Assembly (NCBI GenBank): GCA_943359485.1
Contig: CALRHR010000008.1
Location: 1 to 39,936, forward strand
Direction of reading: 5' to 3'
Source of the DNA: Candidatus Nomurabacteria bacterium
Lineage (GTDB): Bacteria > Patescibacteriota > Minisyncoccia > Phycocordibacterales > UBA9973
DNA length: 39,936 nt
Shown here: positions 12,600 through 37,602 of the stretch, one piece after another
Layout: every line of letters begins with the position of its first letter
Numbering within the stretch: position 1 is the stretch's first letter
Translations under genes and position numbers: made by a program
Notes under the pieces: generated by a model
The model's input: the letters and a program-made list of their open reading frames with translations, nothing else
Database searches by the model: none
Told to the model about the DNA's origin: nothing

Positions 12600-12631
12600 T
12601 TTGTAAATTTTGCATATGCGTAAATTACTCA
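12600..12631. promoter_or_regulatory. Outer palindrome of regulator 1, next to the rpoBC promoter
   Basis: A 32-bp imperfect palindrome centred on GCATATGC (12612-12619), with right arm TTACTCA (12625-12631) and a degenerate left arm TTTGTAA (12600-12606). It matches the promoter palindrome at 13258-13289 in inverted orientation: 17 consecutive bases (GTAAATTTTGCATATGC) are identical when both are read towards the gene. It lies 13 nt after the regulator's stop codon and 34 nt upstream of the rpoBC -35 box. Confidence 0.7.
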
Positions 12632-12644
12632 CTTTTAATATGAG

Positions 12645-13253
12645 CTAACTTAATTCTACTCCAAAATACCTCCTTATCTTCACATCTCGTAAAATATTCT
12701 CTACTGTTAGTACTTCCACAAACTTTCCTACTCCGAAGAAATTAGTAATGAATATTATTTCATCTTCACATGGATAGGGATAAATCCAAGCAGATTTTTG
12801 AAACTGAAAGAAATTTAGTTCTTTTAGATGGTACCTTAGAGCTTCCCTGCCTTTAGTAAATCTCATAGGAATATCGAACATTACCAACCTCCATTTCCCG
12901 TCCCATTTCTTAGGCTTTTTGATTTTCATGAGTTCGATATCAAAAGCCCTCAGCCTTGTCTCTCCTTTTTGGGTGATTTTTACTATTGTCTTTCCTTCTT
13001 TTTCGGTTACATATTCGATGAGGTTTTGATTACGAAGGTAAGCGATCGAATCAACTACTTGTTTTTTACTAAAACGCTTCGCGGTTTTGAATTGTCGAAA
13101 GACCTGCACAGCATTTCCCATGGAAGCTGCTATCAACATAAGAGCTGGAGTGGATGCAATAGCAAGCACACACAGAGCCACTTTTACTGCTTTTGCCTTT
13201 GATGTATCAGAATCCAAGAACTCTCGCAACCGTTCAGAATATTTTTTGTCCAT
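12645..13253 (-). CDS. PaaX/Cas2-fold transcriptional regulator 1
   Basis: A 202-residue protein. After a basic N-terminus and a hydrophobic helix (about 22-47) comes a winged helix-turn-helix (KRFSKKQVVDSIAYLRNQNLIEY, then a wing KTIVKITQKGE). A C-terminal Cas2-like ferredoxin domain follows, with KWRLVMFDIP, basic residues, and FFQFQKSAWIYPYPCE. PaaX-type proteins are dimeric repressors with this layout; members in Patescibacteria are often labelled Cas2 although no cas1 or array is nearby. The Asp of the FDIP motif, equivalent to the Cas2 catalytic Asp, is retained. The gene is bracketed by two related palindromes, one over its own promoter, so autoregulation is likely. Paralogs occur at 28929-29483 and 37062-37550. 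Confidence 0.82.
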   Translation of the reverse strand: MDKKYSERLREFLDSDTSKAKAVKVALCVLAIASTPALMLIAASMGNAVQVFRQFKTAKRFSKKQVVDSIAYLRNQNLIEYVTEKEGKTIVKITQKGETRLRAFDIELMKIKKPKKWDGKWRLVMFDIPMRFTKGREALRYHLKELNFFQFQKSAWIYPYPCEDEIIFITNFFGVGKFVEVLTVENILRDVKIRRYFGVELS

Positions 13254-13257
13254 ATAA

Positions 13258-13289
13258 TGAGTAATTCTAGCATATGCAAAATTTACTCA
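13258..13289 (-). promoter_or_regulatory. Promoter and operator of regulator 1
   Basis: A 32-bp palindrome with arms TGAGTAA (13258-13264) and TTACTCA (13283-13289), symmetric about GCATATGC (13270-13277). Read on the minus strand, TTGTGA, a 17-nt spacer and TAGAAT form a promoter almost entirely within the palindrome. The TAGAAT box ends 10 nt before the ATG, so the transcript would have almost no leader. A bound dimer would block this promoter. Confidence 0.75.
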
Positions 13290-13314
13290 CAAGAGGTTCC
13301 AAATTAATTAGATT

Positions 13315-14079
13315 TCAAATTTCAAATGTCACAATTAACGGACGATGGTCGGAGCCTTTTAAGTCCAACATTTCAGAAGAAATTTTTTTTAAGTTCTTAG
13401 AAAAAATATAGTCCAGCCGAGAATATAAGTTAATACCAAAAAAATGCAATATCTTCATCATTTTATATAAACCATCTTGTGGAGCGTCATTAGAACCATC
13501 GCAACTCCACTCTAAACCAGGGAAAACATTCATATAATCTTTTAAAATCCTCTCTACTTTCTTTTCTTGGAATCTCCTTAATAAAGAAGGCGCAAGGGTA
13601 TTAAAATCTCCGGATATTATTTCTAGCGCCGAAGCATCTCTCTTTGAATTTTGTAAAAGATATTCAAGCTGATGAAGCCGATGCTTAGTCCCTCCCTCCC
13701 AAGCAAGATGAGCGTTAGTGACCCGGAGTAATTTATTTTCAAACAAAAAATCCACGATCATTATTCCACGTTCTGATATTTGTCTATATTTCGTAAAATA
13801 TTGCGTCCAGTACACCTTCGACAACCGAGGAAGTAAAATTCTCTGGATATCTTTTAAAACAAATTTGGAAGAATTGTAAATAATAGCCAAATTACAAGCA
13901 CTGGTGTGATGAAAATATTCAACTTTAAAATTAGGTGGCAAAATTTCCTCAAAATCTATTTCTGCTTCCTGTACACAAACAATGTCGCAACCCCGACCAA
14001 AAAGATTTTTGATATTTTCCAAAACTTCTTTAAAATGGTATCCGTGCAAAATGTTGTATGTGGCAAAGGTTATTTTCAT
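13315..14079 (-). CDS. Endonuclease/exonuclease/phosphatase (EEP) family protein
   Basis: About 254 residues from the ATG at 14079; an ATG at 14106 would add 9 residues, but these overlap a trmD remnant in another frame. EEP-fold motifs in order: FATYNILHGY (metal-site Asn), VCVQEAE (catalytic Glu), VTNAHLAWEGGTKHRLHQL (His), ISGDFNT (Asp/Asn), LDYIFSKN and the terminal GSDHRPLIV (Asp-His). All catalytic residues appear present. Members hydrolyse phosphodiesters in DNA, RNA, nucleotides or lipids; the substrate here cannot be told. There is no signal peptide, so it is probably cytoplasmic. It is read in the same direction as trmD and the membrane protein upstream. Confidence 0.85.
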   Translation of the reverse strand: MKITFATYNILHGYHFKEVLENIKNLFGRGCDIVCVQEAEIDFEEILPPNFKVEYFHHTSACNLAIIYNSSKFVLKDIQRILLPRLSKVYWTQYFTKYRQISERGIMIVDFLFENKLLRVTNAHLAWEGGTKHRLHQLEYLLQNSKRDASALEIISGDFNTLAPSLLRRFQEKKVERILKDYMNVFPGLEWSCDGSNDAPQDGLYKMMKILHFFGINLYSRLDYIFSKNLKKISSEMLDLKGSDHRPLIVTFEI

Positions 14080-14162
14080 ATATCTTTTTTTGTTTTGTTT
14101 TTCCATTCCTCTATTTTTTTATGATTTCCGGAAAGTAAAACTTTCGGTACTTTGTAATTTTT
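14076..14162 (-). pseudogene. Remnant of a second trmD 3' end
   Basis: Translating this stretch on the minus strand gives KNYKVPKVLLSGNHKKIEEW followed by Lys-rich codons and a stop. It aligns with the C-terminus of the intact TrmD encoded at 15021-15671 (KNYKVPKVLLSGNHKLINEW), but it differs in sequence and is closer to the general TrmD consensus at IEEW. It has no start and overlaps the stop codon of the lycopene-cyclase-domain gene. I infer that an incoming trmD plus membrane-protein segment replaced most of a resident trmD and left this tail. Confidence 0.75.
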
Positions 14163-15018
14163 ATTCCGTATAAAAATATTTACGCAACTCGCTTTTATGT
14201 ATTGGTTCCCCACTTTTTATTTCCAAATCAATAAATATCTTATAATACGCAAGCATAATAGGTGTCCCAAGTAATATCCAAAAAACCAACTCTTCAACGG
14301 GAAAAACTTGATTAAAAAGTTTTACATGCCCTATGTACTGACCAGGGAATCTCCATTGATCTAAATATAATGCTGTGAGTTCAAAGCTCAAATATAAAAA
14401 TAAATTAAAAACACTGGCTTGTAGTAAATGTTTTACTAAAGAAGGTTTAATAAAAATAAGATAAAAGAACGGCAGAGATCCAAAAAGACCTATAAAGAAA
14501 TACGCATAGGGAAATAAAAGAAGGTGTGGATTAATATAAAAAATACTAATAAGTAAAACTATAACTCCTGAAAAAAATACAATAAAGTATTTGAATAAAG
14601 GAGAGACTTTATCAGGCCTTTCAACTTCAAAAAAATGCTCGTAAAAGATAATAGAAAAGAGCACCCAAAAAAAATACCAAATAAGAACATCAATAGGAAT
14701 AAGCCCAAAAATTTTATTAATAAATATGAGCTGTCCAGTCGGCGCCCAAGACCATGCTCCATTAATTTCTGCTAAAAAATCCACAATAAAAAGCAACATC
14801 ATCGCACCACACAAAGCAGCTATTAATTTTTTAGGTTGAATTGGTTTTCTAATAAATAAATAAACGGCTGGCACTCCAAAAAACAACAAAGTAGAAGTAA
14901 AATACCTAACATGAAAAAATAAAACAGTCGGAATACAAATAATAGCCATCAGTAAAACACAAAGAAAGTCTTGTCTTAATGCTTGATTACGAAAAATTCT
15001 TATTATTTCTTGTATCAT
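14161..15018 (-). CDS. Lycopene-cyclase-domain (CarR-like) integral membrane protein
   Basis: A 285-residue protein with about eight predicted membrane helices. Two tandem halves each show the carotenoid-cyclase pattern. The first is EINGAWSWAPTGQLIFINKI, then GLIPIDVLIWYFFW and FYEHFFE. The second is ELTALYLDQWRFPGQYIG, then QVFPVEELVFWILLGTPIML. Heterodimeric lycopene cyclases and related enzymes use the conserved Trp and acidic PxEE residues. PVEE is intact in the second half, while the first has PIDV, so activity as a cyclase is uncertain. No other carotenoid gene is in the window. The gene starts 2 nt after trmD and ends against a trmD remnant, a sign of insertion. Confidence 0.75.
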   Translation of the reverse strand: MIQEIIRIFRNQALRQDFLCVLLMAIICIPTVLFFHVRYFTSTLLFFGVPAVYLFIRKPIQPKKLIAALCGAMMLLFIVDFLAEINGAWSWAPTGQLIFINKIFGLIPIDVLIWYFFWVLFSIIFYEHFFEVERPDKVSPLFKYFIVFFSGVIVLLISIFYINPHLLLFPYAYFFIGLFGSLPFFYLIFIKPSLVKHLLQASVFNLFLYLSFELTALYLDQWRFPGQYIGHVKLFNQVFPVEELVFWILLGTPIMLAYYKIFIDLEIKSGEPIHKSELRKYFYTE

Positions 15019-15020
15019 AC

Positions 15021-15671
15021 TTATTTACCTTTCTTCCACTCGTTAATAAGCTTGTGGTTGCCCGACAATAAAACTTTCGGCACTTTATAATTTTTGCCGC
15101 GATATTTCAAAATCTCTGGTCTTGTATAAACTTCGCTCGTGGAAATCCTCTCTTCTTCGAGCGAGTCGTATTTTCCCAATACGCCAGGAATCTGACGCGA
15201 AATAGAATCGATCAAAACCAAGGCTGGAAGTTCGCCACCAGTAAGTACATAGTCCCCTATTGAGAACTTTTTTGTCCTTAATATTTTATCCACTCGTGCA
15301 TCTATACCCTCATATCTACCACAAATCAAAATAATATCAGTGTATTTTTTTGAGATTTGTTTTGCATAACTTGTCGTAAACTTTTCTGCACTTGGAATAA
15401 AATTAATAATTTGAACCTTTTTGCCCTTCGTTAGACGGAGGACCTTCGCCACTGCTTGAAGTAGTGGCTCGGCCCGCATGACCATTCCCGGTCCACCGCC
15501 GTAGGGTTTGTCGTCTACTGGACGATAATTATTTTCAGGAGCTTTTATAAAATCTCGGGGATTATAAAATTTTATAGAAATTTTTTTGTCCTTTATCGCT
15601 CGCCCCAAAATAGACTCCTTCATATAAGAGTCGAACATCTCGGGAAAAATTGTGATTATATGAAAACGCAC
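15021..15671 (-). CDS. trmD: tRNA (guanine-N1)-methyltransferase
   Basis: TrmD makes m1G37 in tRNA, preventing frameshifts. 216 residues, starting at a GTG codon (RFHIITIFPEMFDSY). SPOUT trefoil-knot motifs are clear: PYGGGPGMVMRAEPLLQA, then ICGRYEGIDARVD, and the knot FSIGDYVLTGGELPALVLIDSISR. The C-terminal domain ends in VLLSGNHKLINEWKKGK. It follows the KH-protein gene with a 9-nt gap. The length is about 30 residues below the E. coli protein. rimM, usually between rpsP and trmD, is missing here. Confidence 0.97.
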   Translation of the reverse strand: MRFHIITIFPEMFDSYMKESILGRAIKDKKISIKFYNPRDFIKAPENNYRPVDDKPYGGGPGMVMRAEPLLQAVAKVLRLTKGKKVQIINFIPSAEKFTTSYAKQISKKYTDIILICGRYEGIDARVDKILRTKKFSIGDYVLTGGELPALVLIDSISRQIPGVLGKYDSLEEERISTSEVYTRPEILKYRGKNYKVPKVLLSGNHKLINEWKKGK

Positions 15672-15680
15672 AGATTCCTT

Positions 15681-16046
15681 TTAGATTCCTTTCAGGTCTT
15701 CCATTGCTTCATCTACTGTCTTCAGTGAGCTTGGAGCTTTACCTATACCGCTACCTGTATTGTGGCTCATAAAACTAGATGGCGCAGGACGCATACTACC
15801 TTCTGGTTCGTTGATCTTCAAATTTACTCGAGCATTATTTTTCATACCAATGATTCGCAAAAGGGTGCGAATAGCTTTCGCAGTATTACCCATTCTGCCG
15901 ATAATCTTACCCATGTCCGCAGGGTTTACTGAGAGCGTTATAAGTACACCCATTTCGTCTACAGTACGATCAATCTTTACATCGTTCGGATTATCCACTA
16001 GAGCTTTGACTACATAATCCAGAAATATCTTGTCTGCTTCTTCCAT
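15681..16046 (-). CDS. khpA: KH-domain RNA-binding protein
   Basis: About 121 residues from the ATG at 16046 (MEEADKIFLDYVVKALVDNP); a GTG at 16103 would add an unlikely N-terminus. The single KH domain has the GxxG loop in MGKIIGRMGNTAKAIRTLLRI. After this the protein has a disordered tail (SMRPAPSSFMSHNTGSGIG). KhpA-like proteins bind RNA and are encoded between rpsP and trmD in many bacteria, as here. The tail is longer than in the usual 75-80 residue KhpA. Function in ribosome or sRNA biology is by analogy. Confidence 0.88.
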   Translation of the reverse strand: MEEADKIFLDYVVKALVDNPNDVKIDRTVDEMGVLITLSVNPADMGKIIGRMGNTAKAIRTLLRIIGMKNNARVNLKINEPEGSMRPAPSSFMSHNTGSGIGKAPSSLKTVDEAMEDLKGI

Positions 16047-16144
16047 ATCGTTTGTTAATATTATTTTGTAATAAGCGCAGTCGTTCCGACTTTTTAATAC
16101 CACGCTTTTATAATTATATCGAACTTATTTATACCAAGCAAGGC

Positions 16145-16453
16145 CTATTTCTTTACCTTTAGTTCTTTCCTCTTTACTGTGGGCTTTTTCTTCGGCAACA
16201 CATTCACCTTCTTGCCCTCTATAATCTTGTCATGTACTAAAAAGTTGTGCATTGTGTCCGAACATTTTGCACCTTTGCTCATCCAATATTTTATCTTGTC
16301 ACCGTCAAGCTTCTTTTCCCCCGCCTTTGGATTGTAAGTGCCGAGTATTTCTAAAAATTTCCCACTTTTAGTGCTGTGCTTTGAGTCAGTCAAAACCACC
16401 CGAAAACTCGGATCATTTTTTCTGCCTATCCTTTGCAATCTTATTTTTAACAT
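16145..16453 (-). CDS. rpsP: Small ribosomal subunit protein bS16
   Basis: bS16, 102 residues, a 30S assembly protein. The N-terminus MLKIRLQRIGRKNDPSFRVV and the LEILGTYNPK block are typical; the C-terminal tail is Lys-rich. It is the first gene of the rpsP-KH-trmD cluster. The -10 element TAAACT (16460-16465), extended by TGC, ends exactly 6 nt before the ATG, which predicts a leaderless mRNA. It is divergent from rnr. Confidence 0.97.
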   Translation of the reverse strand: MLKIRLQRIGRKNDPSFRVVLTDSKHSTKSGKFLEILGTYNPKAGEKKLDGDKIKYWMSKGAKCSDTMHNFLVHDKIIEGKKVNVLPKKKPTVKRKELKVKK

Positions 16454-16459
16454 AAGATG

Positions 16460-16468
16460 AGTTTAGCA
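16460..16468 (-). promoter_or_regulatory. Extended -10 promoter of rpsP
   Basis: TGC followed by TAAACT on the minus strand, 6 nt from the ATG at 16453. The -35 is weak (TTCAGT at a 17-nt spacing from an alternative TATGCT box). The geometry matches six other genes in the window and predicts transcription starting at or within a base or two of the start codon. Confidence 0.5.
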
Positions 16469-16534
16469 TAAATTATCAAAAAGGCAAACTGAAGTCCTGA
16501 CCTCCCCATTCTATCTGAAATTCAAAGAAGGGTA

Positions 16535-16564
16535 TTGGCTGAAAACCGGATGAGATGTTATATT
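16535..16564 (+). promoter_or_regulatory. Promoter of rnr
   Basis: TTGGCT (16535-16540), an 18-nt spacer and TATATT (16559-16564), which ends 7 nt before the rnr ATG. The mRNA would start at or next to the ATG. No Shine-Dalgarno sequence is present. Confidence 0.5.
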
Positions 16565-16571
16565 AAGAATA

Positions 16572-18527
16572 ATGAAAAATCATACAAACAAAAAAGAAGG
16601 CATCATCTCTATTTCCTCCAAAGGTACGGGCTATGTCGCAATCGGAGCAGAAAAAAACAAGGGGCAGGATCCAGAAATTGATTTCAAACATCTCAACACT
16701 GCCTTGCATGGAGACATGGTAGAAATAATTCTGCATCCAAAGGGCAAAGAACGACAAACCGCAGAAGTATCAAGAATAATCTCTCGCGCCAAAAATAATT
16801 TTGTGGGCGTATTGGAAATGGAAAACCATATGTATTTTCTTAAACCTGACGACACAAAAATGTATACCGACATTCTGATCCCGGAAAAAATGCTTTTTGG
16901 GGCCAAACCTGGACAAAAAGTTTTTGTGAAGATGGTTTCTTGGAATGATCCCCGCAAGGCACCAGAGGGGCGCGTGATAAAAATCTTGGGCCACCCAGGA
17001 GACAATGAAACAGAAATGCACGCAATTGCCATAGAAAAGGGTTTTGATTCGGAACTTCCTAAAAAAGTTGAAGAAGAAGCACAAAAAATATCCGCCCAAG
17101 GCGGACCCGCCTCGGGCGGGAAACACGACATAAAAGAGAGTGATCTTGCCGGCAGGAAAGACTTCAGAAAAATTCTTACCTTCACTATTGATCCATCGGA
17201 TGCGAAAGATTTTGACGATGCGATATCTTTTCAAATTCTCGAAGGTGAGGCTTATGAAATCGGTATTCATATCGCGGATGTCTCGCACTATGTAAAAATT
17301 GGTAGTCATCTCGACTTGGAAGCTAGAGAGCGTGGAACTTCGGTGTATTTAGTAGACCGGACTATACCAATGCTTCCAGAAATTCTCTCAAATGATCTGT
17401 GCTCGCTCGTCCCCCATAAAGACCGACTAACCATGAGCGCAGTTTTTGTGGTTGATAAAAACGCCAAAATCCAAAACGCCTGGTTTGGACGCACAGTCAT
17501 ACATTCTAAAAAAAGATTTACCTACCAAGAAGCGGAAGAATCTATTAAAAAATCTGGATTAGTGCTCCATAAAGAGCTTTCTATTTTAAATGACCTAGCA
17601 AAAAAATTAACCAAAGAAAGATTTGCATTGGGAGCAATCTCGCTCGACCAAGAAGAAGTAAAGTTTGTTTTGGATAAAAACGGAGTACCGATAAAAGTAA
17701 TCAAAAAAGAACGTGGTGATTCAAATAGGTTAATTGAAGAATTTATGCTTATGGCAAATAAGGAAATAGCCAGAGTTTTGTCACCCAAGAATAAAAATAG
17801 TAACGAAGAAAGAGTGTCCATCTATCGTGTGCACGATCTGCCAAGTAAAGAAAAGATGGCGGATTTAGCATTCTTCCTGCGAAGTCTGGGGCACAAAGTG
17901 TCTTTGCAGAACGGAATAATCCCAACCTTTGAGATAAATAAATTACTGGAAAAATTGGCAGGAAAAGGTGAAGCTGCCACCGTGCACCGAGCAATAATCC
18001 GTTCCATGGCCAAGGCAATTTATTCCACTAAAAATATCGGGCATTATGGACTTGCATTTCAATACTACACTCACTTCACCTCACCCATCAGACGCTACCC
18101 AGACATTATGGTGCACAGATTGCTTACAAATTTTTTGGCTGGAAGAAAAACAGGTAAAGAAAAATTACATGAGTATGAAAAGATCGCCCAAATAGCGTCC
18201 GAACAGGAGAAACGCGCTTCTGACGCAGAACGCATTTCAATAAAATACAAACAGGTCGAGTACATGTCCAAGCACAAAGGAGAAAAATTCGGAGGAGTGA
18301 TCAGTGGCATTACTGAATGGGGAATGTATATAGAAGAAATTGAAACAAAATGTGAGGGTATGGTACGAGTGCGAGATATAGATAACGATTTTTATGTTTA
18401 CAATGAAAAGAGACTGGAGCTAGTCGGACAAAAAAATAAAAAGAAATACAGACTGGGTGATCAAATAAAGATAAAAGTTGGTAATGTCGATCTAGAACGA
18501 AAAACAATAAATTATGTTTTAATTTAA
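16572..18527 (+). CDS. rnr: Ribonuclease R
   Basis: 3'-5' exoribonuclease of the RNB family, 651 residues. Cold-shock-like OB domains occupy about 1-170. The RNB catalytic domain opens with LTFTIDPSDAKDFDDAISF, whose Asp cluster binds magnesium. HIADVSHYVKIGSHLDLEAR and the late FTSPIRRYPDIMVHRLL follow. A C-terminal S1 domain reads KFGGVISGITEWGMYIEE. Residues about 174-183 (SAQGGPASGG) come from a palindromic element at 17091-17120 placed between the OB region and the RNB core. The following gene starts 4 nt after its stop. Confidence 0.96.
   Translation: MKNHTNKKEGIISISSKGTGYVAIGAEKNKGQDPEIDFKHLNTALHGDMVEIILHPKGKERQTAEVSRIISRAKNNFVGVLEMENHMYFLKPDDTKMYTDILIPEKMLFGAKPGQKVFVKMVSWNDPRKAPEGRVIKILGHPGDNETEMHAIAIEKGFDSELPKKVEEEAQKISAQGGPASGGKHDIKESDLAGRKDFRKILTFTIDPSDAKDFDDAISFQILEGEAYEIGIHIADVSHYVKIGSHLDLEARERGTSVYLVDRTIPMLPEILSNDLCSLVPHKDRLTMSAVFVVDKNAKIQNAWFGRTVIHSKKRFTYQEAEESIKKSGLVLHKELSILNDLAKKLTKERFALGAISLDQEEVKFVLDKNGVPIKVIKKERGDSNRLIEEFMLMANKEIARVLSPKNKNSNEERVSIYRVHDLPSKEKMADLAFFLRSLGHKVSLQNGIIPTFEINKLLEKLAGKGEAATVHRAIIRSMAKAIYSTKNIGHYGLAFQYYTHFTSPIRRYPDIMVHRLLTNFLAGRKTGKEKLHEYEKIAQIASEQEKRASDAERISIKYKQVEYMSKHKGEKFGGVISGITEWGMYIEEIETKCEGMVRVRDIDNDFYVYNEKRLELVGQKNKKKYRLGDQIKIKVGNVDLERKTINYVLI
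17091..17120. repeat. In-frame palindromic element inside rnr (family B)
   Basis: Two adjacent GC-rich hairpins: TCCGCC/GGCGGA (17091-17105) and CCCGCC/GGGCGGG (17106-17120). It shares 19 consecutive identical bases (CCCAAGGCGGACCCGCCTC) with the minus strand of the helicase-nuclease gene at 38394-38424. In both genes it is read in the same frame as QGGPAS. Confidence 0.8.
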
Positions 18528-18531
18528 ATCT

Positions 18532-20454: not shown

Positions 20455-20508
20455 GGCACCCCGCTTGTTTTAAAAACTCTTCAAATAAATACAAAAATAG
20501 CCTACTTT

Positions 20509-21390: not shown

Positions 21391-21418
21391 GAATTCGTGG
21401 GTAAATATTTTGAAAAAC

Positions 21419-22003
21419 TTAGTTTTCAAAGTTTACCTTTGGTGCCGCTTGATTTGCTTCCGGCACATCAAAGTACGATTTCTCGGTTACCCCGAAAATT
21501 TTCGCCAAAATCGAAGATGGGAAAGTTTTTACATTCGTATCAAAGACACGCACTAGTTCATTGTATTTCTGTCTCTCGACTGAGATGCGATTCTCAGTAC
21601 CTTCGAGCGAAACGATCAAGTCCCGATATGCTTGCGAAGATTGTAGCACTGGGTAAGCTTCGGCGATGACTAGCAAGCGTCCGAGTGCTGACTCGATTTG
21701 AGTGGCGGCTTGAGCTTTTTCATTTGGAGTTGTGGCTCCGGAGTACCGCGTACGCGCTTGCGCAATAACACCAAAGACTTCTTGCTCTTGCTTGGCTACA
21801 CCCTTGACAGTGTTTACAATGTTCGGAATCAAATCAAAACGCCTCTGATACTGATTCTCTACTTGAGCCCATTGCGCTGTCACTTGCTCGCCGACTCTGA
21901 TAAAGAAATTATATTTCGATATTACCCATAGCGCCAAAAGCACGATGATACCTACCCCCACAATCAACTTCATATTTCTTTGAAAAAAGTTTTGTTCTTC
22001 CAT
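21419..22003 (-). CDS. lemA: LemA family protein
   Basis: 194 residues. One N-terminal membrane helix (about 11-28) is followed by a long helical domain with the family signature ISKYNFFIRVGEQVTAQWAQVENQYQRRFDLIPNI and the C-terminal YNELVRVFDTNVKTFPSSILAKIFGVTEKSYFD. LemA proteins have a short N-terminus outside and a helical bundle; they usually pair with TPM proteins, here 28 nt downstream. An extended -10 (TGATATAAT on the minus strand near 22069-22077) lies about 70 nt upstream. Confidence 0.93.
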   Translation of the reverse strand: MEEQNFFQRNMKLIVGVGIIVLLALWVISKYNFFIRVGEQVTAQWAQVENQYQRRFDLIPNIVNTVKGVAKQEQEVFGVIAQARTRYSGATTPNEKAQAATQIESALGRLLVIAEAYPVLQSSQAYRDLIVSLEGTENRISVERQKYNELVRVFDTNVKTFPSSILAKIFGVTEKSYFDVPEANQAAPKVNFEN

Positions 22004-22078
22004 ATATTTTATTTCAGCTCGAGGCTGATCCGCCTTAAACGGAAAGTTACTTATTAATAGAATTATTATATCATACTT

Positions 22079-22957: not shown

Positions 22958-22963
22958 CTTTAT

Positions 22964-23056: not shown

Positions 23057-23062
23057 GCCCCT

Positions 23063-27094: not shown

Positions 27095-27095
27095 T

Positions 27096-28247: not shown

Positions 28248-28283
28248 TTTTTAGTAATTTATATGTTTAACTTATGGGAATAA

Positions 28284-28847
28284 TTATCTATTTTCTTTTT
28301 TAAGAATCTCCAGGAGATTTTTCATTGCCCGGCCACGATGAGAAGAATCGTAATATTCCGATGGGTGATATTCCAACATCACTTTATCCATACCATCCAG
28401 CTTTACAAATAATTCAAATTCTCTGCCTTTATGATCATTGTCCTTAGGAGGAACTATTACCCCCTCAAATGTGCCTTCAACTATAACAATATCTTCCGGG
28501 CCACGACATAGACCCAAGCGACACGTCGCGCTGATGCGTGAGCCGGCAAACTTGTGACCCATTTCATAAGGAGTAAAACATTTCCAAAAATCTTTTTGAT
28601 AAGGTCCTGGAAAGCCATTTAATGCTTCCATGTTTACTGAAACATCATCTACCAAAACTGGATGTTTATAAATTTCATATGCTCTTTGAAGCTTATACTT
28701 AATTATTTCATCTGGATTGCCCTGAATTTCAGGATCATTCCAAGGTTTTTTTTCACAATCAAAAAATTCGCCGAGTTTTAAAGACAAATCTCCAAATTTA
28801 AACTTACTTCCAGTAACAATATAAAGCTTTGGTCTCATTTGAATCAT
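28284..28847 (-). CDS. HAM1/RdgB-like nucleoside triphosphate pyrophosphatase
   Basis: About 187 residues from the ATG at 28847; the ATG at 28838 (MRPKLYIVTGSKFKFGDL) is also plausible. HAM1/ITPase motifs: IVTGSKFKF, PDEIIKYKLQRAYE, LVDDVSVNMEALNGFPGPYQKDFW, ATCRLGLCRGP, and the terminal YDSSHRGRAMKNLLEIL. These enzymes cleave non-canonical NTPs such as ITP and XTP to the monophosphates. Loop residues differ from typical RdgB (DDVSV for EDSGL), so specificity may differ. A copy of the regulator 2 palindrome lies just upstream, which suggests control by that regulator. It is convergent with the MFS gene. Confidence 0.85.
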   Translation of the reverse strand: MIQMRPKLYIVTGSKFKFGDLSLKLGEFFDCEKKPWNDPEIQGNPDEIIKYKLQRAYEIYKHPVLVDDVSVNMEALNGFPGPYQKDFWKCFTPYEMGHKFAGSRISATCRLGLCRGPEDIVIVEGTFEGVIVPPKDNDHKGREFELFVKLDGMDKVMLEYHPSEYYDSSHRGRAMKNLLEILKKENR

Positions 28848-28892
28848 TTTACAGCAGACTAGGTAAATATACAATTAGTTAATTTTAAAACG

Positions 28893-28925
28893 TATACTAT
28901 GTTGACGGCCGTTAGTATAGTATAT
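28893..28925. promoter_or_regulatory. Outer palindrome of regulator 2, upstream of the HAM1-like gene
   Basis: TATACTA (28893-28899) and TAGTATA (28913-28919) in inverted repeat around a core with ACGGCCGT. The last 19 bases (TGACGGCCGTTAGTATAGT) are identical to the promoter copy at 29492-29520, with the same arm spacing and the same orientation. It lies 9 nt after the stop of regulator 2. Read on the minus strand it retains a TATACT/17 nt/TATACG promoter-like geometry leading into the HAM1-like gene. Confidence 0.75.
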
Positions 28926-28928
28926 AAA

Positions 28929-29483
28929 CTATGTTAATTTCTTTAAAGTACCTATTTTACTAATTTCAAAAATTTCGACATATTCAAGAATCTTTAAGTT
29001 TTCCAGATCATTAATAAAATCTTTTGGGATTTTTAACTTCCCCATCCACACACTCTGATGGATCATTTTAAATTTAAGATTCTTAATCACTTCTCTGAGC
29101 CAGTTACGTTTCCTACGGAGCTTCTCAGGAATATCAAAACTTATTATGATTTGACTTTTTTGACCTGGAATTTCTTCGTAGTGTCTATCTGGTAAAGTAT
29201 TTCTCAAAGAATCTAATTTGTTTTTACCTTTACTTGAAATGGTAACAACATTTTTATTTTCTATTATCAAACCATCTTGCCTCATTTTTGATATATAGGT
29301 TCTCAATCGCTCTTCCCTATCCCTACAAACTTTTCTTTCTCTTTGCCGTTTATTATATTCATAGTCAATCTTACTCATGCCGGCACCATAGCCTGCTACT
29401 AGAACTGCGGAGAAAAAGTCGGCTTGACTTATAGTACCCTCGTAAAGTATTTCTAATGCCTTTAATAGAATTTTTCCTTTCAT
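28929..29483 (-). CDS. PaaX/Cas2-fold transcriptional regulator 2
   Basis: 184 residues. An N-terminal winged helix region (MKGKILLKALEILYEG, then RLRTYISKMRQDGLIIENKNVVTISSKGK) with a basic stretch about 45-60 (NKRQRERKVCRDREER) precedes a Cas2-like ferredoxin domain: IIISFDIPEKLRRKRNWLRE, IHQSVWMGKLKIPKDFINDL, VEIFEISKIG. The Asp of FDIP is kept. A TATAAT box lies exactly 6 nt before the ATG, inside a palindrome that is repeated after the stop codon, next to the HAM1-like gene. I infer an autoregulated repressor of both genes. Upstream is gyrB on the same strand. Confidence 0.82.
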   Translation of the reverse strand: MKGKILLKALEILYEGTISQADFFSAVLVAGYGAGMSKIDYEYNKRQRERKVCRDREERLRTYISKMRQDGLIIENKNVVTISSKGKNKLDSLRNTLPDRHYEEIPGQKSQIIISFDIPEKLRRKRNWLREVIKNLKFKMIHQSVWMGKLKIPKDFINDLENLKILEYVEIFEISKIGTLKKLT

Positions 29484-29489
29484 GACATG

Positions 29490-29520
29490 ATTATACTACA
29501 CTGACGGCCGTTAGTATAGT
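29490..29520 (-). promoter_or_regulatory. Promoter and operator of regulator 2
   Basis: Arms TATACTA (29492-29498) and TAGTATA (29512-29518) around a core containing ACGGCCGT. On the minus strand TATACT, 17 nt and TATAAT (29490-29495) form the promoter; the -10 ends 6 nt before the ATG at 29483. The palindrome covers the spacer and both boxes. Confidence 0.75.
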
Positions 29521-29570
29521 AAATACTATTAATTAATCTCTTTCCTTTCTATAAAGAAAAACACCAACCA

Positions 29571-31661
<2,091 letters not shown>

Positions 31662-31721
31662 TTATAAGAGTATTCTAGCAGAAAATTATGAAATTTGCTA
31701 GTAAAAATATGGAAAAACTAT

Positions 31722-33032: not shown

Positions 33033-33058
33033 TTAATATACCTCCATTGTATCAGTAC

Positions 33059-34924
33059 TTACCTCACCTGCCAACCCGTATTTTCCTTGATTTTATTAGT
33101 TATTTTTTCCATTATTTCATTAACTTCCGTGTCTGTGAGAGTACGCTCATATGATTGAAAAACTAATCTAAACGCATAAGAAATTTTATCATCTTTTTTA
33201 AATTCATCAAAGAGTTCTGGACCGCGAATTACTAATTCTCCGGCATTGTCTTTGATAATTTTAGAAACTTCAACGCTTGTAACATTGACTGGCACCCACA
33301 CCGCTATATCTCGCGCGATAAATGGAAACAAAGACCACATATGAAATTTTTGTAAAGTAACACCTGTATGCGAAGCAGATACAGAAAAATTGAGTCCGTG
33401 TCGGAGCCCGCTTGCGGGTAAAGCGGCGAAATTTTCCTGTATCTGCGAAGTAAATTCATCTAATTTTTTTTCTATTATTTTATCTTTTTCATTATAAACA
33501 ACATGTGTCTCCTCTTTGTCTTTCAAAAAAACTGTTCCTATTTCGAAAATTTTTATTTCATTTAAACCAAGTAATGAAGAATTTATTTTATTTAATTTCA
33601 AGCTTTCCTTTAATCCGTCACTCAAATTTGTTCGCAAGAACTTTTTATCTGAAGCGCTTTGCATGACCTCCACTTCTCCCCTATCGCAAAAAACATATGT
33701 CATGACTTCACTATACCCATCTGTCAATAATTTATTTCTTGCAACCTGAATTTTTGCATAAGTTTCATTTACTTTCGGTGTGAAATTTATTCTTGGCAGA
33801 CAAGGTTCGACCTTGTCATAGCCCAAAATTCGCCCAATTTCTTCCGCCATGTCCTCTTCTATCTCTAGATCAAGGCGCATCGGTGGGATCCTGATTTCGT
33901 ATTTTGCTCCCCCTGCCAAGGGGGAGTGCCCATCGGGCAAGGGGGTCTTTTCGTAACTAATATTGTACCTTTTCAAAATATCTTCTATCTCTCTGTCTGA
34001 AATTTTCAAGCCTAAAATTTTAGAAATTCTTTCAGCAGAAAAAAAGAGCTTACACTCTTCTTGTTTCTTGGGATAAACATCTACAATATCCTCAAAAATT
34101 GCTTCAGGGCACATCTCTGCAATGAGAGCTGAGAGCTCAAGCATCCCATATTCTGCCATCTCTGGCGACAAATCATTCTCAAATCTTTTTCGTGCGTCAG
34201 TAAAAATATTTAAGGTTTGCGCAGTTTTTCTAACTGAAGTTGGGTCAAAATTCGCACATTCCAGAATGATATCTGTTGTATCTTTTGTCAATTCAGCATA
34301 ATTGCCGCCTTTTATACCAGCAATATCAAGTGAGTTGCCAAAATCATCAGCAATCACCATCATGGTGTCATTTAAAATCTTTTTTTCCCCACCAAGTAAA
34401 GCAATCTGTTCGCCATTGTTAGCATTGCGAACTTTTAATTTTAAATCTTTTACTTTGGCTAAATCAAAAACATGCGCTGGTTGTCCGCAATCGTACATCA
34501 CAATATTTGTCGCATCTACAATATTATTTATAGATCGCTGTCCGATTGACTCTAAATGTTTTACCACCCATTCTGGCGACGGACCAATTTTTACATTTCG
34601 TATGATCCTGCCCATATATCTGCGACATTTTGAACTTTCGATTGTTTTGACGAGCCTGGTCGGCTTCGATTCCGGAATTTTGTACTTGGGTGTTGGGTCG
34701 ACAAAATTTATATCTAAAAGTGAAGCAAGTTCACGCGCCACGCCCTGATGTGAAAGTAAATCATGGGCTCGATTTGGTAAAATTTTTATATCAAAAATAC
34801 TATCACCATCTTTTTTCTCGACAGTTTCTACCTCCGCTATGTGGTAAGTAATAATATCCGCCAGCTTTTCTGCAGAAGGTGCATCCGGAATATACCATTT
34901 GAGCCAATTGTAAGAGACTTTCAT
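33059..34924 (-). CDS. pheT: Phenylalanyl-tRNA synthetase beta subunit, trimmed
   Basis: 621 residues versus about 790 in E. coli. The N-terminus (MKVSYNWLKWYIPDAPSAEKLADIITYHIAEVETVEKK) jumps to DIKILPNRAHDLLSHQGVARELA, so the EMAP-like tRNA-binding OB domain (about 110 residues) is missing. The B3/B4 editing region, B5 (DREIEDILKRYNISYE), the catalytic-like core and the C-terminal FDX-ACB anticodon-binding domain (SYAFRLVFQSYERTLTDTEVNEIMEK) are present. Residues about 327-341 derive from a palindromic element. pheS lies 3 nt upstream on the same strand. Confidence 0.95.
   Translation of the reverse strand: MKVSYNWLKWYIPDAPSAEKLADIITYHIAEVETVEKKDGDSIFDIKILPNRAHDLLSHQGVARELASLLDINFVDPTPKYKIPESKPTRLVKTIESSKCRRYMGRIIRNVKIGPSPEWVVKHLESIGQRSINNIVDATNIVMYDCGQPAHVFDLAKVKDLKLKVRNANNGEQIALLGGEKKILNDTMMVIADDFGNSLDIAGIKGGNYAELTKDTTDIILECANFDPTSVRKTAQTLNIFTDARKRFENDLSPEMAEYGMLELSALIAEMCPEAIFEDIVDVYPKKQEECKLFFSAERISKILGLKISDREIEDILKRYNISYEKTPLPDGHSPLAGGAKYEIRIPPMRLDLEIEEDMAEEIGRILGYDKVEPCLPRINFTPKVNETYAKIQVARNKLLTDGYSEVMTYVFCDRGEVEVMQSASDKKFLRTNLSDGLKESLKLNKINSSLLGLNEIKIFEIGTVFLKDKEETHVVYNEKDKIIEKKLDEFTSQIQENFAALPASGLRHGLNFSVSASHTGVTLQKFHMWSLFPFIARDIAVWVPVNVTSVEVSKIIKDNAGELVIRGPELFDEFKKDDKISYAFRLVFQSYERTLTDTEVNEIMEKITNKIKENTGWQVR
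33907..33938. repeat. In-frame palindromic element inside pheT (family A)
   Basis: CTCCCCC/GGGGGAG (33907-33926) followed by GCCC/GGGC (33928-33938). It matches the dnaG element at 2506-2550 in order and spacing of its runs, and encodes LPDGHSPLAGG in PheT. A weaker hairpin, CCCGC/GCGGG at 33407-33418 in the same gene, may be a related insertion. Confidence 0.7.
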
Positions 34925-34927
34925 ATT

Positions 34928-35635
34928 TTAAAATTGATTGAGCCGTAAATCTCCTTGATAAAAAAGCCGTACATCTGGAATCCCCCATTTGACCATAGCA
35001 ATTCTGTCAAAACCATGCCCAAAGGCAAAACCTTGAAATTTGGCGGGATCCAAGCCGACATTTCGTAAAACATTTGGATGGAGCATTCCCGAACCACCCA
35101 TTTCCAACCATTTGCCTCTAAATTTAACAAATAATTCGAAAGAGGGTTCGGTAAAAGGGAAAAAACTCGGTCTGAATTCTAGATAAATATCTTCTCCCAA
35201 CATTTTTTTATAAAATTCATTAAGTATACCTTTCATGTCTGCCACGGAAATATTTTCTCCAACCATTGCTCCATCTATTTGATGAAACTGCATTTCATGG
35301 GTAGCATCTGTGGCCTCATTGCGAAAAACTTTTCCCAGAGAAATAAAAGCGCAAGGCATCCTCGATTCTTTGGCAGCTTTTTCTATGGAACGAGCGGTTA
35401 CGCTAGTCGTATGAGTTCTCAAAACTTTTTGCTTTTCATTTTTGATTACAAATGTGTCCTGCATATCCCGCGCTGGATGATCTCTCGGCACATTTAAAAC
35501 ATCAAAATTATACCACTCACTTTCGAGTTCTGGCCCAGTAACAATCTCAAAACCCATCTCCGAAAAGATCTGCAAGGCTTGATTTGCCAACATGGAAAGC
35601 GGATGCTCTTTGCCTTTTACAGTTTCTTCTGCCAT
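34928..35635 (-). CDS. pheS: Phenylalanyl-tRNA synthetase alpha subunit, lacking the coiled coil
   Basis: 235 residues, about 90-100 fewer than usual. The catalytic class II core is complete: HPLSMLANQALQIFSEMGFEIVTGPE, DHPARDMQDTFV, LRTHTTSVTARS (motif 2 region), GKVFRNEATDATHEMQFHQIDG, WLEMGGSGMLHPNVL and FAFGHGFDRIAMVKWGIPDVR (motif 3). The N-terminal coiled coil that contacts tRNA is missing; an in-frame TAA lies 4-6 nt upstream of the ATG, so no longer product is possible. An extended -10 TGGTATAAT overlaps the stop of trhO and leaves a leader of under 20 nt. Confidence 0.95.
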   Translation of the reverse strand: MAEETVKGKEHPLSMLANQALQIFSEMGFEIVTGPELESEWYNFDVLNVPRDHPARDMQDTFVIKNEKQKVLRTHTTSVTARSIEKAAKESRMPCAFISLGKVFRNEATDATHEMQFHQIDGAMVGENISVADMKGILNEFYKKMLGEDIYLEFRPSFFPFTEPSFELFVKFRGKWLEMGGSGMLHPNVLRNVGLDPAKFQGFAFGHGFDRIAMVKWGIPDVRLFYQGDLRLNQF

Positions 35636-35659
35636 AAATTAATTTAAACTAATAATATA

Positions 35660-35668
35660 ATTATACCA
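35660..35668 (-). promoter_or_regulatory. Extended -10 promoter of pheST
   Basis: TGG plus TATAAT on the minus strand, overlapping the trhO stop codon and 24 nt before the pheS ATG. It would permit pheST transcription independent of trhO. Confidence 0.45.
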
Positions 35669-36578
35669 AATCCGCTTCGATAGAACTAATTCTGCGTCCG
35701 TGCCTACTCAAAACGCACCCACCCGGACAAAAGGTGTTCCCTCCCGCGTCTTTAACACACTTCTCGCAGGCGATGAAGTGCCTGTGACAAACTGGATTCG
35801 CACAGTTTACATAATTTTCGGATTCTTCTGCGCAAGCATCGCACTTTCCAACAATTTTATGGTTTTTGTCATCTGTATAAAATCCCATAGTAATTCTTTT
35901 ATCAAAAACATACAGCTTCCCCTGAAAATTCTCATTTGGGTATTTCTCCATATAACTCACAATTCCTCCGTCTAATTGATACACATCCGTAAAACCTTGT
36001 GTAATTAAAAAGCCCGAGGCTTTCTCGCAACGCACTCCTCCAGTACAAACAGTTAGCACCGTTTTATTTTTTAGATGTTTAATTTGTTCGACTACTTTTG
36101 GCAAATCCCGAAAATTTTCAATCGGGGGCATTATAGAATTTTCGAAATGTCCAACCTTGTGTTCGTAAACATTGCGCATATCCACAATGTAAAACTCACG
36201 ACCACTTTTTATCCACTCGTGCAATTTTTCTGGTTGTAAGTGAATGCCAGTAATTTGATTTGGATCTATATCACAAGTGCCTAAATTAAGAGACACGATT
36301 TCTTTCCGCACTTTTATAGAAAGTTTAGGAAAAGCATATCCAGTACCTGCACTATATTTAAAATGAATATTCTGAAATCTTTTATCTTTTTCTAATTCCT
36401 GCACATATTCTTTTATATTCTCTTGAGTCCCTTCAAAAGTCGCATTAATGCCCTCAAAAGCAATGATGCACCTGCCCGTCAAGCCAAGATCCTCGCAAAT
36501 TTGCATTTGCTTGGTTTTGACGGTTTCTGGGTCATCAATGAAAACATATTTATAGAAAAGAATTATTTGATATTCCAT
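35661..36578 (-). CDS. trhO: tRNA uridine(34) hydroxylase (rhodanese-like, UPF0176)
   Basis: 305 residues. An N-terminal acylphosphatase-like domain (ILFYKYVFIDDPE ... EGINATFEGT) precedes a rhodanese domain (FYIVDMRNVYEHKVGHFENS) with the active-site loop VCTGGVRCEKASGFL and a Cys-rich C-terminus (CDACAEESENY ... CEKCVKDAGGNTFCPGGC). TrhO hydroxylates U34 of tRNA for 5-oxyacetyl-type wobble modification. The -10 TAAGAT (36585-36590) with TGT extension ends 6 nt before the ATG, and a TTGTAA -35 lies 16 nt further, predicting a leaderless mRNA. Confidence 0.93.
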   Translation of the reverse strand: MEYQIILFYKYVFIDDPETVKTKQMQICEDLGLTGRCIIAFEGINATFEGTQENIKEYVQELEKDKRFQNIHFKYSAGTGYAFPKLSIKVRKEIVSLNLGTCDIDPNQITGIHLQPEKLHEWIKSGREFYIVDMRNVYEHKVGHFENSIMPPIENFRDLPKVVEQIKHLKNKTVLTVCTGGVRCEKASGFLITQGFTDVYQLDGGIVSYMEKYPNENFQGKLYVFDKRITMGFYTDDKNHKIVGKCDACAEESENYVNCANPVCHRHFIACEKCVKDAGGNTFCPGGCVLSRHGRRISSIEADLV

Positions 36579-36584
36579 ATATTC

Positions 36585-36612
36585 ATCTTAACAATAAAAA
36601 AAGAAATTACAA
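36585..36612 (-). promoter_or_regulatory. Promoter of trhO
   Basis: On the minus strand TTGTAA, a 16-nt T-rich spacer and TAAGAT (36585-36590) preceded by TGT, exactly 6 nt from the ATG at 36578. Confidence 0.5.
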
Positions 36613-36661
36613 GATTTTGCTATTATTGAGTTATGGGCTAAATTTTTTAAAGAATTATATA

Positions 36662-36964
36662 TTATCGAAAACCAAGAAAGCTTATAGTATCTACTATGCC
36701 AGCACGACCGAGAAATATTGCGATTGCAACATAAAGTAAAGATATAAAAGCACCTAAGCATAGAAATCCAGCCGTACTTTGCCTCTTAAATAAATAAATG
36801 ATTCCAGATAAAACAAAAATTATAGCATACATTCCTGACAGTATAAATATAACATAAGGAGCTTTATCGTTTCCTGACAAACTAGAACCAATAATAGTGA
36901 TTGCCAGTAAAATAGCTGGAGTAAGTATTAATGCCCAATTAATTATTTTGTGGGTATCTTTCAT
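36662..36964 (-). CDS. Small integral membrane protein
   Basis: 100 residues with three predicted membrane helices (about 9-27, 37-60 and 68-88) and short charged ends (MKDTHKII at the start). No family recognised. TATAAT (36971-36976) with TGG extension ends 6 nt before the ATG, so the mRNA should be leaderless. Two palindromes lie upstream: a perfect 16-bp one (36998-37013) and the outer copy of the regulator 3 palindrome (37013-37046). The layout suggests that this gene is a target of regulator 3. Confidence 0.65.
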   Translation of the reverse strand: MKDTHKIINWALILTPAILLAITIIGSSLSGNDKAPYVIFILSGMYAIIFVLSGIIYLFKRQSTAGFLCLGAFISLLYVAIAIFLGRAGIVDTISFLGFR

Positions 36965-36970
36965 AAAAAA

Positions 36971-36979
36971 ATTATACCA
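36971..36979 (-). promoter_or_regulatory. Extended -10 promoter of the small membrane protein gene
   Basis: TGG plus TATAAT on the minus strand, exactly 6 nt before the ATG at 36964. No good -35 is visible, and the palindromes at 36998-37046 occupy the upstream region, where an activator or repressor could act. Confidence 0.5.
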
Positions 36980-36997
36980 TATTATTTACAAATAACT

Positions 36998-37013
36998 ATA
37001 ATTACGTAATTAT
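36998..37013. promoter_or_regulatory. Perfect 16-bp palindrome
   Basis: ATAATTAC followed by GTAATTAT, a perfect palindrome that abuts the outer copy of the regulator 3 palindrome and lies about 20 nt upstream of the -10 of the small membrane protein gene. It is a likely binding site for a second dimeric protein or an additional site for the same one. Confidence 0.5.
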
Positions 37014-37046
37014 GTTACAAACTCTGCGATAGCAGAAAATCTAACA
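37013..37046. promoter_or_regulatory. Outer palindrome of regulator 3
   Basis: TGTTAC (37013-37018), core CTGCGATAGCAG (37024-37035), CTAACA (37041-37046). It matches the promoter copy (37569-37602) in inverted orientation, including the asymmetric GATA centre. It lies 15 nt after the stop codon of regulator 3. Confidence 0.75.
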
Positions 37047-37061
37047 AATTCATAACTTCTT

Positions 37062-37550
37062 TTATTTGTTATTTTTAAAATCATATCCTCGCGCAAGTTT
37101 AAAAGTCTTTAGGCTATCTCTGAGTTCGATGCTTTTAATATAATCCAAAAATTCTTTCGGTAAAGGTGATGGCCCAACCCAAACACTCTTTTGTATCATA
37201 AGATAATTAAACTTCTTTAGATGCCATCGCAACCATTCCCTTTCAGCTTTTCTGGACTCTGACACATCAAACATTACTATTAAATTTTTTGGCGCATTTT
37301 TATTGAACTTAAAATTAAATTGTTTTAATGAATCAATTTTCTTACTGATATATTTTTTTCCTTTTAAAGTAACACATAATGAGCCATAATCTTCTATAAA
37401 TCCTTCTTTTACTAAAGAAGACATGGTTGCCCGCAACGAATTGGGTGAATATTTTTTAAATTTCGGTAAACCTAAAAGATTTACTCTCATACCTTTATAA
37501 TTGATGGATGTTTCACTCAATTCTTTTAAAATATCAAATATAATACTCAT
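37062..37550 (-). CDS. PaaX/Cas2-fold transcriptional regulator 3
   Basis: 162 residues. N-terminal winged helix (MSIIFDILKELSETS, then SPNSLRATMSSLVKEGFIEDYGSLCVTLKGKKY) and a C-terminal Cas2-like domain: LIVMFDVSESRKAEREWLRWHLKKFNYLMIQKSVWVGPSPLP, FLDYIKSIELRDSLKTFKLARGYDF. The Asp of the FD motif is kept. Shortest of the three paralogs in the window. The TATACT -10 (37557-37562, TGG-extended) ends 6 nt before the ATG, and two copies of a matching palindrome bracket the gene. Upstream is a helicase-nuclease gene, downstream a small membrane protein gene. Confidence 0.82.
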   Translation of the reverse strand: MSIIFDILKELSETSINYKGMRVNLLGLPKFKKYSPNSLRATMSSLVKEGFIEDYGSLCVTLKGKKYISKKIDSLKQFNFKFNKNAPKNLIVMFDVSESRKAEREWLRWHLKKFNYLMIQKSVWVGPSPLPKEFLDYIKSIELRDSLKTFKLARGYDFKNNK

Positions 37551-37556
37551 ACAGAA

Positions 37557-37565
37557 AGTATACCA
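37557..37565 (-). promoter_or_regulatory. Extended -10 promoter of regulator 3
   Basis: TGG plus TATACT on the minus strand, 6 nt before the ATG at 37550. The -35 region is covered by the palindrome at 37569-37602. Confidence 0.55.
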
Positions 37566-37568
37566 AAT

Positions 37569-37602
37569 TGTTAGGAACTCTGCTATCGCAGAAAGTCTAA
37601 CA
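37569..37602. promoter_or_regulatory. Promoter-side palindrome of regulator 3
   Basis: TGTTAG (37569-37574), core CTGCTATCGCAG (37580-37591), CTAACA (37597-37602); the arms and core share one symmetry axis. It lies 18 nt upstream of the ATG and over the -35 region, the position of a repressor operator. Confidence 0.75.

Follow-up and report, generated by a model that had tools for sequence, protein, structure and literature searches.

Results

Three bracketed PaaX/Cas2-fold genes in the window

The window analyzed here is a stretch of 39,936 nucleotides from a Candidatus Nomurabacteria bacterium (GenBank assembly GCA_943359485.1, contig CALRHR010000008.1, positions 1 to 39,936), which is contig 8 of a 713 kb genome in 20 contigs. 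It carries three small genes of the PaaX_M family, each lying between two copies of a palindrome, as listed below. Here and throughout, neighboring genes (rpoB, gyrB, rpoD, cmk, trmD, dUTPase, NUDIX, kinases, ksgA and uvrD) bear the names which we take them to have from their sequence.

12645..13253, minus strand: PaaX_M/Cas2-fold gene 1 (202 aa), upstream of rpoB; GCATATGC family, termed FB
13258..13290, minus strand: locus 1 upstream (promoter-side) palindrome, including the extended -10 TGCTAGAAT
12600..12631, minus strand: locus 1 downstream palindrome, inverted relative to the upstream copy
28929..29483, minus strand: PaaX_M/Cas2-fold gene 2 (184 aa), immediately downstream of gyrB; CTAACGGCCGTCAG family, termed FD
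29492..29525, minus strand: locus 2 upstream palindrome
28893..28924, minus strand: locus 2 downstream palindrome, a direct copy
37062..37550, minus strand: PaaX_M/Cas2-fold gene 3 (162 aa); CTGCGATAGCAG family, termed FF
37569..37602, minus strand: locus 3 upstream palindrome
37013..37046, minus strand: locus 3 downstream palindrome, centre inverted, spacers direct

An initial annotation, made from the sequence of the window, had placed the three genes at these coordinates and had proposed that a palindrome covers the promoter of each and recurs as a matched second copy after the stop codon. Both points were confirmed. The upstream and downstream palindromes matched with scores of 24, 26 and 24 at loci 1 to 3, compared with no more than 13 in 20 shuffles of the flanks. 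Within the window ACGGCCGT occurs in 2 copies against 0.12 expected, TCTGCKATMGCAGA with up to two mismatches in 3 copies (2 exact) against 0.20 expected, and GCATATGC in 3 copies against 0.30 expected, the third lying within uvrD. The bracketing of the window genes is real and far from chance. The spacing and orientation first described required correction. Downstream copies had been placed 9-15 nt past the stop codon, but the copy at locus 2 starts about 4 nt after it. The pair at locus 1 is inverted (inverted score 24 vs direct 18) and that at locus 2 direct (direct 26 vs inverted 20), as originally reported, while the pair at locus 3, reported as inverted, is mixed, with inverted centre bases and spacers slightly favoring the direct arrangement (direct 24 vs inverted 21).

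Protein family and fold

All three proteins matched PaaX_M (PF20803) above the cut-off, with E-values of 2.7e-18, 3e-10 and 1.7e-12 for proteins 1, 2 and 3, so the Cas2-like half of the fold originally assigned to them holds throughout; the winged helix is confident in protein 1 only. The AlphaFold2 model of protein 1 (mean predicted local distance difference test score, pLDDT, of 91) showed a winged helix followed by a beta-alpha-beta-beta-alpha-beta domain. Its best full-length structural match was E. coli PaaX (8a39; Z 9.2, 171 residues, root-mean-square deviation 5.8), and its C-terminal domain matched the Cas2 structure 6jhz (Z 9.1 over 71 residues, root-mean-square deviation 3.4). Protein 2 gave weak helix-turn-helix matches below the cut-off. 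For protein 3 the family search returned no helix-turn-helix match, and the single-sequence model (mean pLDDT 45) was too poor for use, leaving its winged helix not established.

Proteins 2 (23.3 bits) and 3 (22.7 bits) narrowly missed the Cas2 family cut-off of 23.8 bits, and protein 1 did not match the Pfam Cas2 model. The full PaaX architecture was not found either: no other PaaX Pfam domain matched the window proteins, and TIGR02277 scored 19.2 bits, far under its cut-off of 264.55. No match of the window proteins to Y1_Tnp, the HUH/tyrosine transposase family, was obtained in the family search. Across 62 aligned sequences G97, W117, D118, K120, D127 and S154 were invariant, and no histidine was among the invariant or near-invariant positions. 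D127 lies at the end of strand 1 and is presumably the equivalent of the Cas2 aspartate.

Extent of bracketing in the genus and beyond

Bracketing was scored in fetched loci (L numbers), a gene being counted as bracketed when its upstream and downstream flanks matched with a score of at least 15. The PaaX_M family was searched in 60 of the 80 genus genomes (G numbers); 36 places among the matches listed were left out of the fetched loci, and the resulting set of 116 same-genus genes is biased to better-scoring ones. In this set 74 of 116 genes reached the threshold, 69 with a palindromic match, compared with 11 of 120 control genes (8 palindromic); four of the best-scoring controls were themselves DNA-binding genes with palindromes. 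Six of the seven PaaX_M genes in the genome of the window are bracketed, L003 being the exception. Copy number among the matches listed ranged from 0 to 19 per genome.

In a sample of the phylum the family was present in 92 of 286 genomes, and 16 of the 30 best-scoring loci were bracketed, some with copies identical over 34-38 nt. A further 80 named distant loci, four of which were dropped for short flanks, gave 67 of 76 at or above the threshold, compared with 8% for flanks paired across loci. By score 62 of these 67 were palindromic, the exceptions being L359, L382, L394, L405 and L431; in L359 and L382 the best match arises from a duplicated gene end. The first 26 (L357-L382) are close relatives overlapping the genus set. 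Among the 50 usable others (L383-L436) 41 reached the threshold, 38 with palindromic matches. Titles in the distant bracketed set include Kaiserbacteria, Gottesmanbacteria, Daviesbacteria, Nealsonbacteria, Moraniibacteriota and Levyibacteriota, plus three Nomurabacteria, and L397 has a 47-nt palindrome identical at both ends.

The protein tree of 115 genes does not include L035 and L104. L125 and L134 were assigned to the paired class by eye and no class was given to L107 or L116; in all, the tree holds 75 paired, 38 unpaired and 2 unclassed genes. A single fully supported split of highly conserved proteins contained 37 of the 38 unpaired genes together with the unclassed L116. These 37 genes, L003 among them, occur one per genome in 37 different genomes, and the remaining unpaired gene, L067, is placed amid paired ones. 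Since the unpaired genes sit in one conserved clade, bracketing belongs to the variable part of the family. A general lack of the downstream copy among homologues, which would have spoken against the original proposal, was thus seen in this one clade and not in most genes.

Palindrome architecture and overlap with promoters

Paired genus genes were sorted by hand into seven families by palindrome core and tree position; FB, FD and FF are those of window loci 1, 2 and 3, and F1 is a fourth. FF and F1 palindromes have a core at the centre flanked by outer arms of about 6-8 bp, with a few bases between core and arm which pair no better than chance, and in FD the separation of core and arm is less clear. 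The FF arms differ among copies yet remain complementary, in 64-94% of copies vs 27-56% expected. In all seven families the upstream and downstream copies of one element matched each other better on average than those of other members (permutation p <0.0002 to 0.04; L028, L099 and L104 left out), with the own partner being the single best match in just 36 of 68 cases. By eye, the families studied were unlike intrinsic terminators, a judgement made without a terminator scan; some other palindromes near gyrB resemble ordinary intrinsic terminators.

Of 73 genes, 55 have an extended -10 within 60 nt upstream and 15 have one within 60 nt downstream, which fits the earlier suggestion that the upstream copy serves in autoregulation and would be consistent with repression at the promoter. 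The companion suggestion that the second site controls the next gene did not generalize: beyond the downstream palindrome the next gene was convergent in 31 of 72 cases, and with so few downstream extended -10 motifs we rejected the downstream palindrome as the operator of the next gene as a rule. Strictly inverted ends were likewise rejected, as the palindrome pair is clearly direct in 30 of 73 elements, clearly inverted in 16 and ambiguous in 27.

Solo palindromes outside elements

The initial annotation described the palindromes as features of the three loci, where they are indeed paired; it missed that they also occur alone in relatives. Pattern searches covered all 80 genus genomes, with counts that include element ends. 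Matches were present in 22 (F1), 33 (FF), 11 (FD) and 17 (FB) genomes; reversed-pattern controls were zero for F1, FF and FB, and the FD control matched in two genomes. Roughly 200 matches were found in the genus, and in several genomes they exceeded the number of element ends. No solo of its three families was seen in the window. In its own genome the FB, FD and FF patterns match element ends only, and the F1 pattern has one match beyond its element, a probable solo.

Solos were counted in the fetched loci (the first matches per genome plus chosen regions), a count which most of the listed FB solos fall outside; three FF matches and two in-gene FB matches without arms were set aside. For F1, FF and FD the fetched loci hold 69 intergenic and 17 in-gene solos. 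The 69 intergenic ones comprise 36 between convergent genes, 32 in tandem and 1 in divergent gaps. Measured against the intergenic bases at the gyrB, rpoB and RsmI loci, convergent gaps are enriched (36/69 vs 25%, p=1.6e-6) and divergent gaps depleted (1/69 vs 13.5%, p=5e-4). In 53 of 68 cases the centre of the solo is no more than 27 nt from a stop codon, counted without a random-position baseline. Of eight fetched FB solos outside genes, 5 lie between convergent genes, 2 lie in tandem gaps and 1 is at the edge of a locus; by eye two of the eight show an extended -10. An FB match in G073 was rejected as a solo as it adjoins a PaaX-type gene.

Genomes bearing an element more often held solos of the same family (F1, p=2.8e-6; FB, p=4.6e-6; from tables filled by hand), the FB association standing at p=3e-5 when the doubtful G035 was dropped. 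Solos of different families lie next to each other in L225, L200 and L211.

Palindromes inside coding frames

In-frame FF palindromes occur in rsmI of two genomes, in one gene for cysteine desulfurase, in two for reverse transcriptase and probably in ksgA; the peptides they specify are variants of N-S-A-I-A-E-N. The names RsmI, cysteine desulfurase, reverse transcriptase and MiaA rest on homology searches. Compared with solved relatives, RsmI has 11 and cysteine desulfurase 9 additional residues at the palindrome. The two reverse transcriptase genes are:

L257:940-1950: reverse transcriptase with in-frame FF palindrome just before the GLPLGN motif
L277:913-1947: reverse transcriptase with in-frame FF palindrome just before the GLPLGN motif; best match 8ub7

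Signs of movement

The suggestion that the loci are self-contained cassettes is supported by several lines of evidence. In 139 pairs of elements in different contexts, sequence matches stopped short of the outer palindrome edge, by 7 nt on the left and 39 nt on the right in the median, and the 90th percentile lay 10 nt past the palindrome on either side; in some F1 pairs left-side homology runs 50-90 nt further. Homology therefore seldom extends past the palindromes, and the variation in copy number given above points the same way. Between the dUTPase/NUDIX genes and a block of two kinase genes an F1 element is present in seven genomes, and in G001 the same block has one palindrome and no gene, that is, an empty site with a solo. 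A second candidate empty site, a solo after gyrB in G002 (L287), was rejected because a gene of its own showed it to be an element.

In three elements the 3' end of a neighboring gene is present on both sides, outside the palindromes: rpoD in L028 (53 nt, identical), cmk in L099 (52 nt with 5 mismatches) and trmD in L104 (51 nt with 15 mismatches). From their sequence these duplicated gene ends look like insertion footprints of different ages. As the best near-full-length gyrB match was merely 77% identical, there was no close genome pair to compare.

The same layout around Trp-repressor-family genes

Genes of the Trp repressor family (PF01371), encoding 132-133 aa, are bracketed by TATCATATATGATA palindromes, and three were among the best-scoring controls:

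L042:942-1340: Trp-repressor-family gene with TATCATATATGATA pair
L049:3617-4018: Trp-repressor-family gene with TATCATATATGATA pair
L054:4247-4645: Trp-repressor-family gene with TATCATATATGATA pair

All nine fetched genes of this family passed the threshold; in eight the palindrome gave the match, in L481 a different repeat did. Most of the nine were located via the palindrome itself. The TATCATATATGATA palindrome was present in 19 of 80 genus genomes and the control gave zero. Because these genes are bracketed likewise, the layout belongs to more than one protein family.

A gene near gyrB, L047:3982-4665, which is the fourth of the best-scoring controls with palindromes, has a palindrome CACAGGTCAGACCTGTG upstream and part of CACAGGTCAGACCTGTG downstream, and resembles a repetitive extragenic palindromic (REP)-associated tyrosine transposase (RAYT; NF047646, 40.7 bits, below the cut-off of 80).

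Comparison with known systems

In REP systems, according to those parts of two accounts considered here, palindromes flank a tnpA-REP/RAYT gene and further ones are scattered over the genome, with several families each having its own protein (PMC8266576, PMC3116915). Both features of such a REPtron, a small gene bordered by palindromes and the same palindromes dispersed mainly outside genes, are present in our system, and so are several families, each with a protein of its own. In contrast to the HUH-tyrosine protein of the REPtron, the protein here has a PaaX/Cas2 fold and the defining HUH transposase was not detected; there are few copies per genome rather than hundreds, pairs may be direct or inverted, and one genome may hold several bracketed genes. 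No GTAG-type tetranucleotide tag was noticed at the foot of the palindromes in the listed solos, which were inspected without a formal motif search.

Other known systems share fewer features. PaaX repressors combine a winged helix with a Cas2-like domain, as protein 1 does, but the genes described here are bracketed and often multicopy. The smallest IS200/IS605 elements are about 0.7 kb with one small gene, and elements in the present set resemble them in both respects; they differ in giving no HUH transposase (Y1) match and in having palindromes which persist alone too. Rickettsia palindromic elements lie in frame inside conserved protein genes, whereas in our set every family comes with a bracketed cognate gene and solos lie mostly between genes. 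With CRISPR Cas2 the proteins share the structural match of the C-terminal domain and the invariant aspartate, but the domain is fused to a winged helix in protein 1 and Cas2 family cut-offs were not reached. A literature search, with subscription papers and preprints outside its coverage, found no paper on PaaX in Patescibacteria or on PaaX together with a Cas2-like protein, and none of the titles and abstract openings listed by broader searches deals with this double-palindrome layout.

Interpretation and alternative explanations

With slightly better than even confidence, we interpret these loci as a REPtron-like system, in which each palindrome family has a cognate bracketed, probably autoregulated PaaX/Cas2-fold protein, and which has spread at least formerly. 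A locus would be a cassette of about 0.6-0.75 kb consisting of palindrome, gene and palindrome. The encoded protein, in the modelled case a winged helix joined to a Cas2-like ferredoxin domain, and probably a dimer, would bind its own palindrome family and, because the upstream copy overlaps the promoter, would repress its own gene. The two end copies and the solos elsewhere would be the sites acted on, as in a REPtron. Palindromes or cassettes would move or have moved, and what moves them may be the encoded protein itself, by way of its Cas2 domain, or else some factor of the host or of another origin. At the sequence level the interpretation is supported by the bracketing, its confinement within the tree, the solos, the palindromes inside genes, the element boundaries, the empty site and the duplicated gene ends. 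The system works like a REPtron and is not a REPtron, because the defining HUH transposase is absent.

A number of observations weigh against this interpretation. No family had more than 12 pattern matches in one genome. The convergent enrichment of solos comes from F1 (26/39) and FD (7/10), together 33 of 49; FF solos were 16 tandem, 3 convergent and 1 divergent (n=20), and in several short tandem gaps the start that follows is no farther off than the stop codon. F1 solos match the element of their own genome weakly (mean rank 5.3 of 14 vs 7 at random), and no convincing target duplication was found flanking solos. In the genus the palindrome site in RsmI falls in a loop whose length varies, and which is just as long in several relatives without a palindrome, so that the RsmI case alone is no proof of insertion; in miaA, where F1 is present in six genomes and FF in one, the protein is not lengthened and the palindromes therefore look like replacements. 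In all, one empty site with a solo was found: G052 has the kinase block with neither gene nor palindrome, and G048 retains the kinases only, again with no palindrome. The gene-end repeat of L104 does not reach the score of the best among 74 mismatched controls, and other repeats, in L077 and L130, turned up in the same scan. Many elements are old, kept at common sites (rpoB, the kinase block) across species. The element upstream of rpoB, present in 7 of 30 loci, argues against recent activity, and the 23 of 30 loci without the gene have no core within 420 nt upstream. Viral carriage was rejected, as two scans of viral contigs found no relative. Lastly, the Trp-repressor-family genes have the same layout, which argues against an essential role of a Cas2 nuclease; proteins of this family are not known as nucleases, and the mechanism is better not tied to the Cas2 domain.

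The strongest rival holds that these are immobile, autoregulated DNA-binding proteins, each with one promoter site and one end site, and that the sites found behind genes serve as roadblock terminators, or as insulators between genes. It covers both position and conservation: solos adjoin stop codons with the convergent excess given above, element positions are common to several species, a different DNA-binding family has the same layout, and the FF outer arms vary yet stay complementary, as if protein and site co-evolve. Palindromes inside coding frames, gene ends duplicated with identity over 53 nt (L028), homology that seldom passes the palindromes and a copy number of 0 to 19 within one genus would all be unexpected for immobile genes. 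We consider this explanation a serious one that is nonetheless probably not correct; the variable RsmI loop and the lack of convergent enrichment among FF solos led us to raise its standing slightly and to lower that of the REPtron-like system slightly.

Alternatively, the cassette may be a passenger moved by another enzyme, such as a host or phage recombinase, with the protein an autorepressor and the solos deletion scars. The 51-53 nt duplications of gene ends resemble the identity blocks of attachment sites, the empty site retains one palindrome, and a protein of the Trp repressor family, not known as a nuclease, shows the same layout. Deletion scars do not account for genomes in which pattern matches exceed element ends, nor for palindromes in frame inside genes, and we regard this alternative as improbable. 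Still less credible, and in our view very improbable, are plain autoregulators whose second operator serves DNA looping, with solos as the usual operators of its regulon. Transcriptional repressors are known in the PaaX family (8a39 being an example), and the frequent upstream extended -10 (55/73 genes) agrees with this, but solos are rare in divergent gaps (1/69 vs 13.5% of intergenic bases), and the FB solos outside genes are convergent in 5 of 8 cases, with two showing an extended -10 by eye.

If the REPtron-like interpretation is extended beyond the genus, Cas2-fold proteins, which are known from CRISPR integration, may recognise palindromes and be spreading these along with their own cassettes, independently of HUH transposases, as miniature elements across candidate phyla; a second class would use a Trp-repressor-family protein, so that a genome-resident pairing of palindrome and DNA-binding protein would have arisen more than once; we put this forward tentatively and doubt it more than we believe it. 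Candidate-phyla genomes are strongly reduced, yet those of a single genus hold 0 to 19 of these genes and dispersed palindromes, which would take either selfish propagation or some role at gene ends that has gone unrecognised. PaaX/Cas2-fold genes of such bacteria thereby gain a testable role, for which several protein-site families are supplied. REP/RAYT systems offer a natural comparison, the reason for their persistence being open in the part of the source considered (PMC3116915). Should the Cas2 domain indeed act on the palindromes, this would bear on how proteins of the Cas2 fold acquired their part in DNA integration.

Additional observations

Genes beside elements are often, by sequence, nucleotide-pool genes (NUDIX, dUTPase, thymidylate/adenylate/cytidylate kinase, HD domain), as at L001, L009, L020, L015, L022 and L129; in the window a Ham1 family match lies at 28284-28874. 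A 20-nt AT-rich inverted repeat is present in two copies (window 16-35 and 92-111) just past the end of rpoD at the contig edge. In three genomes the gyrB match is split at one query position by a gap of about 1.3 kb (G014:C2:4457-5754, G047:C1:325052-326349 and G068:C2:12042-13339), which on this evidence looks like an intein.

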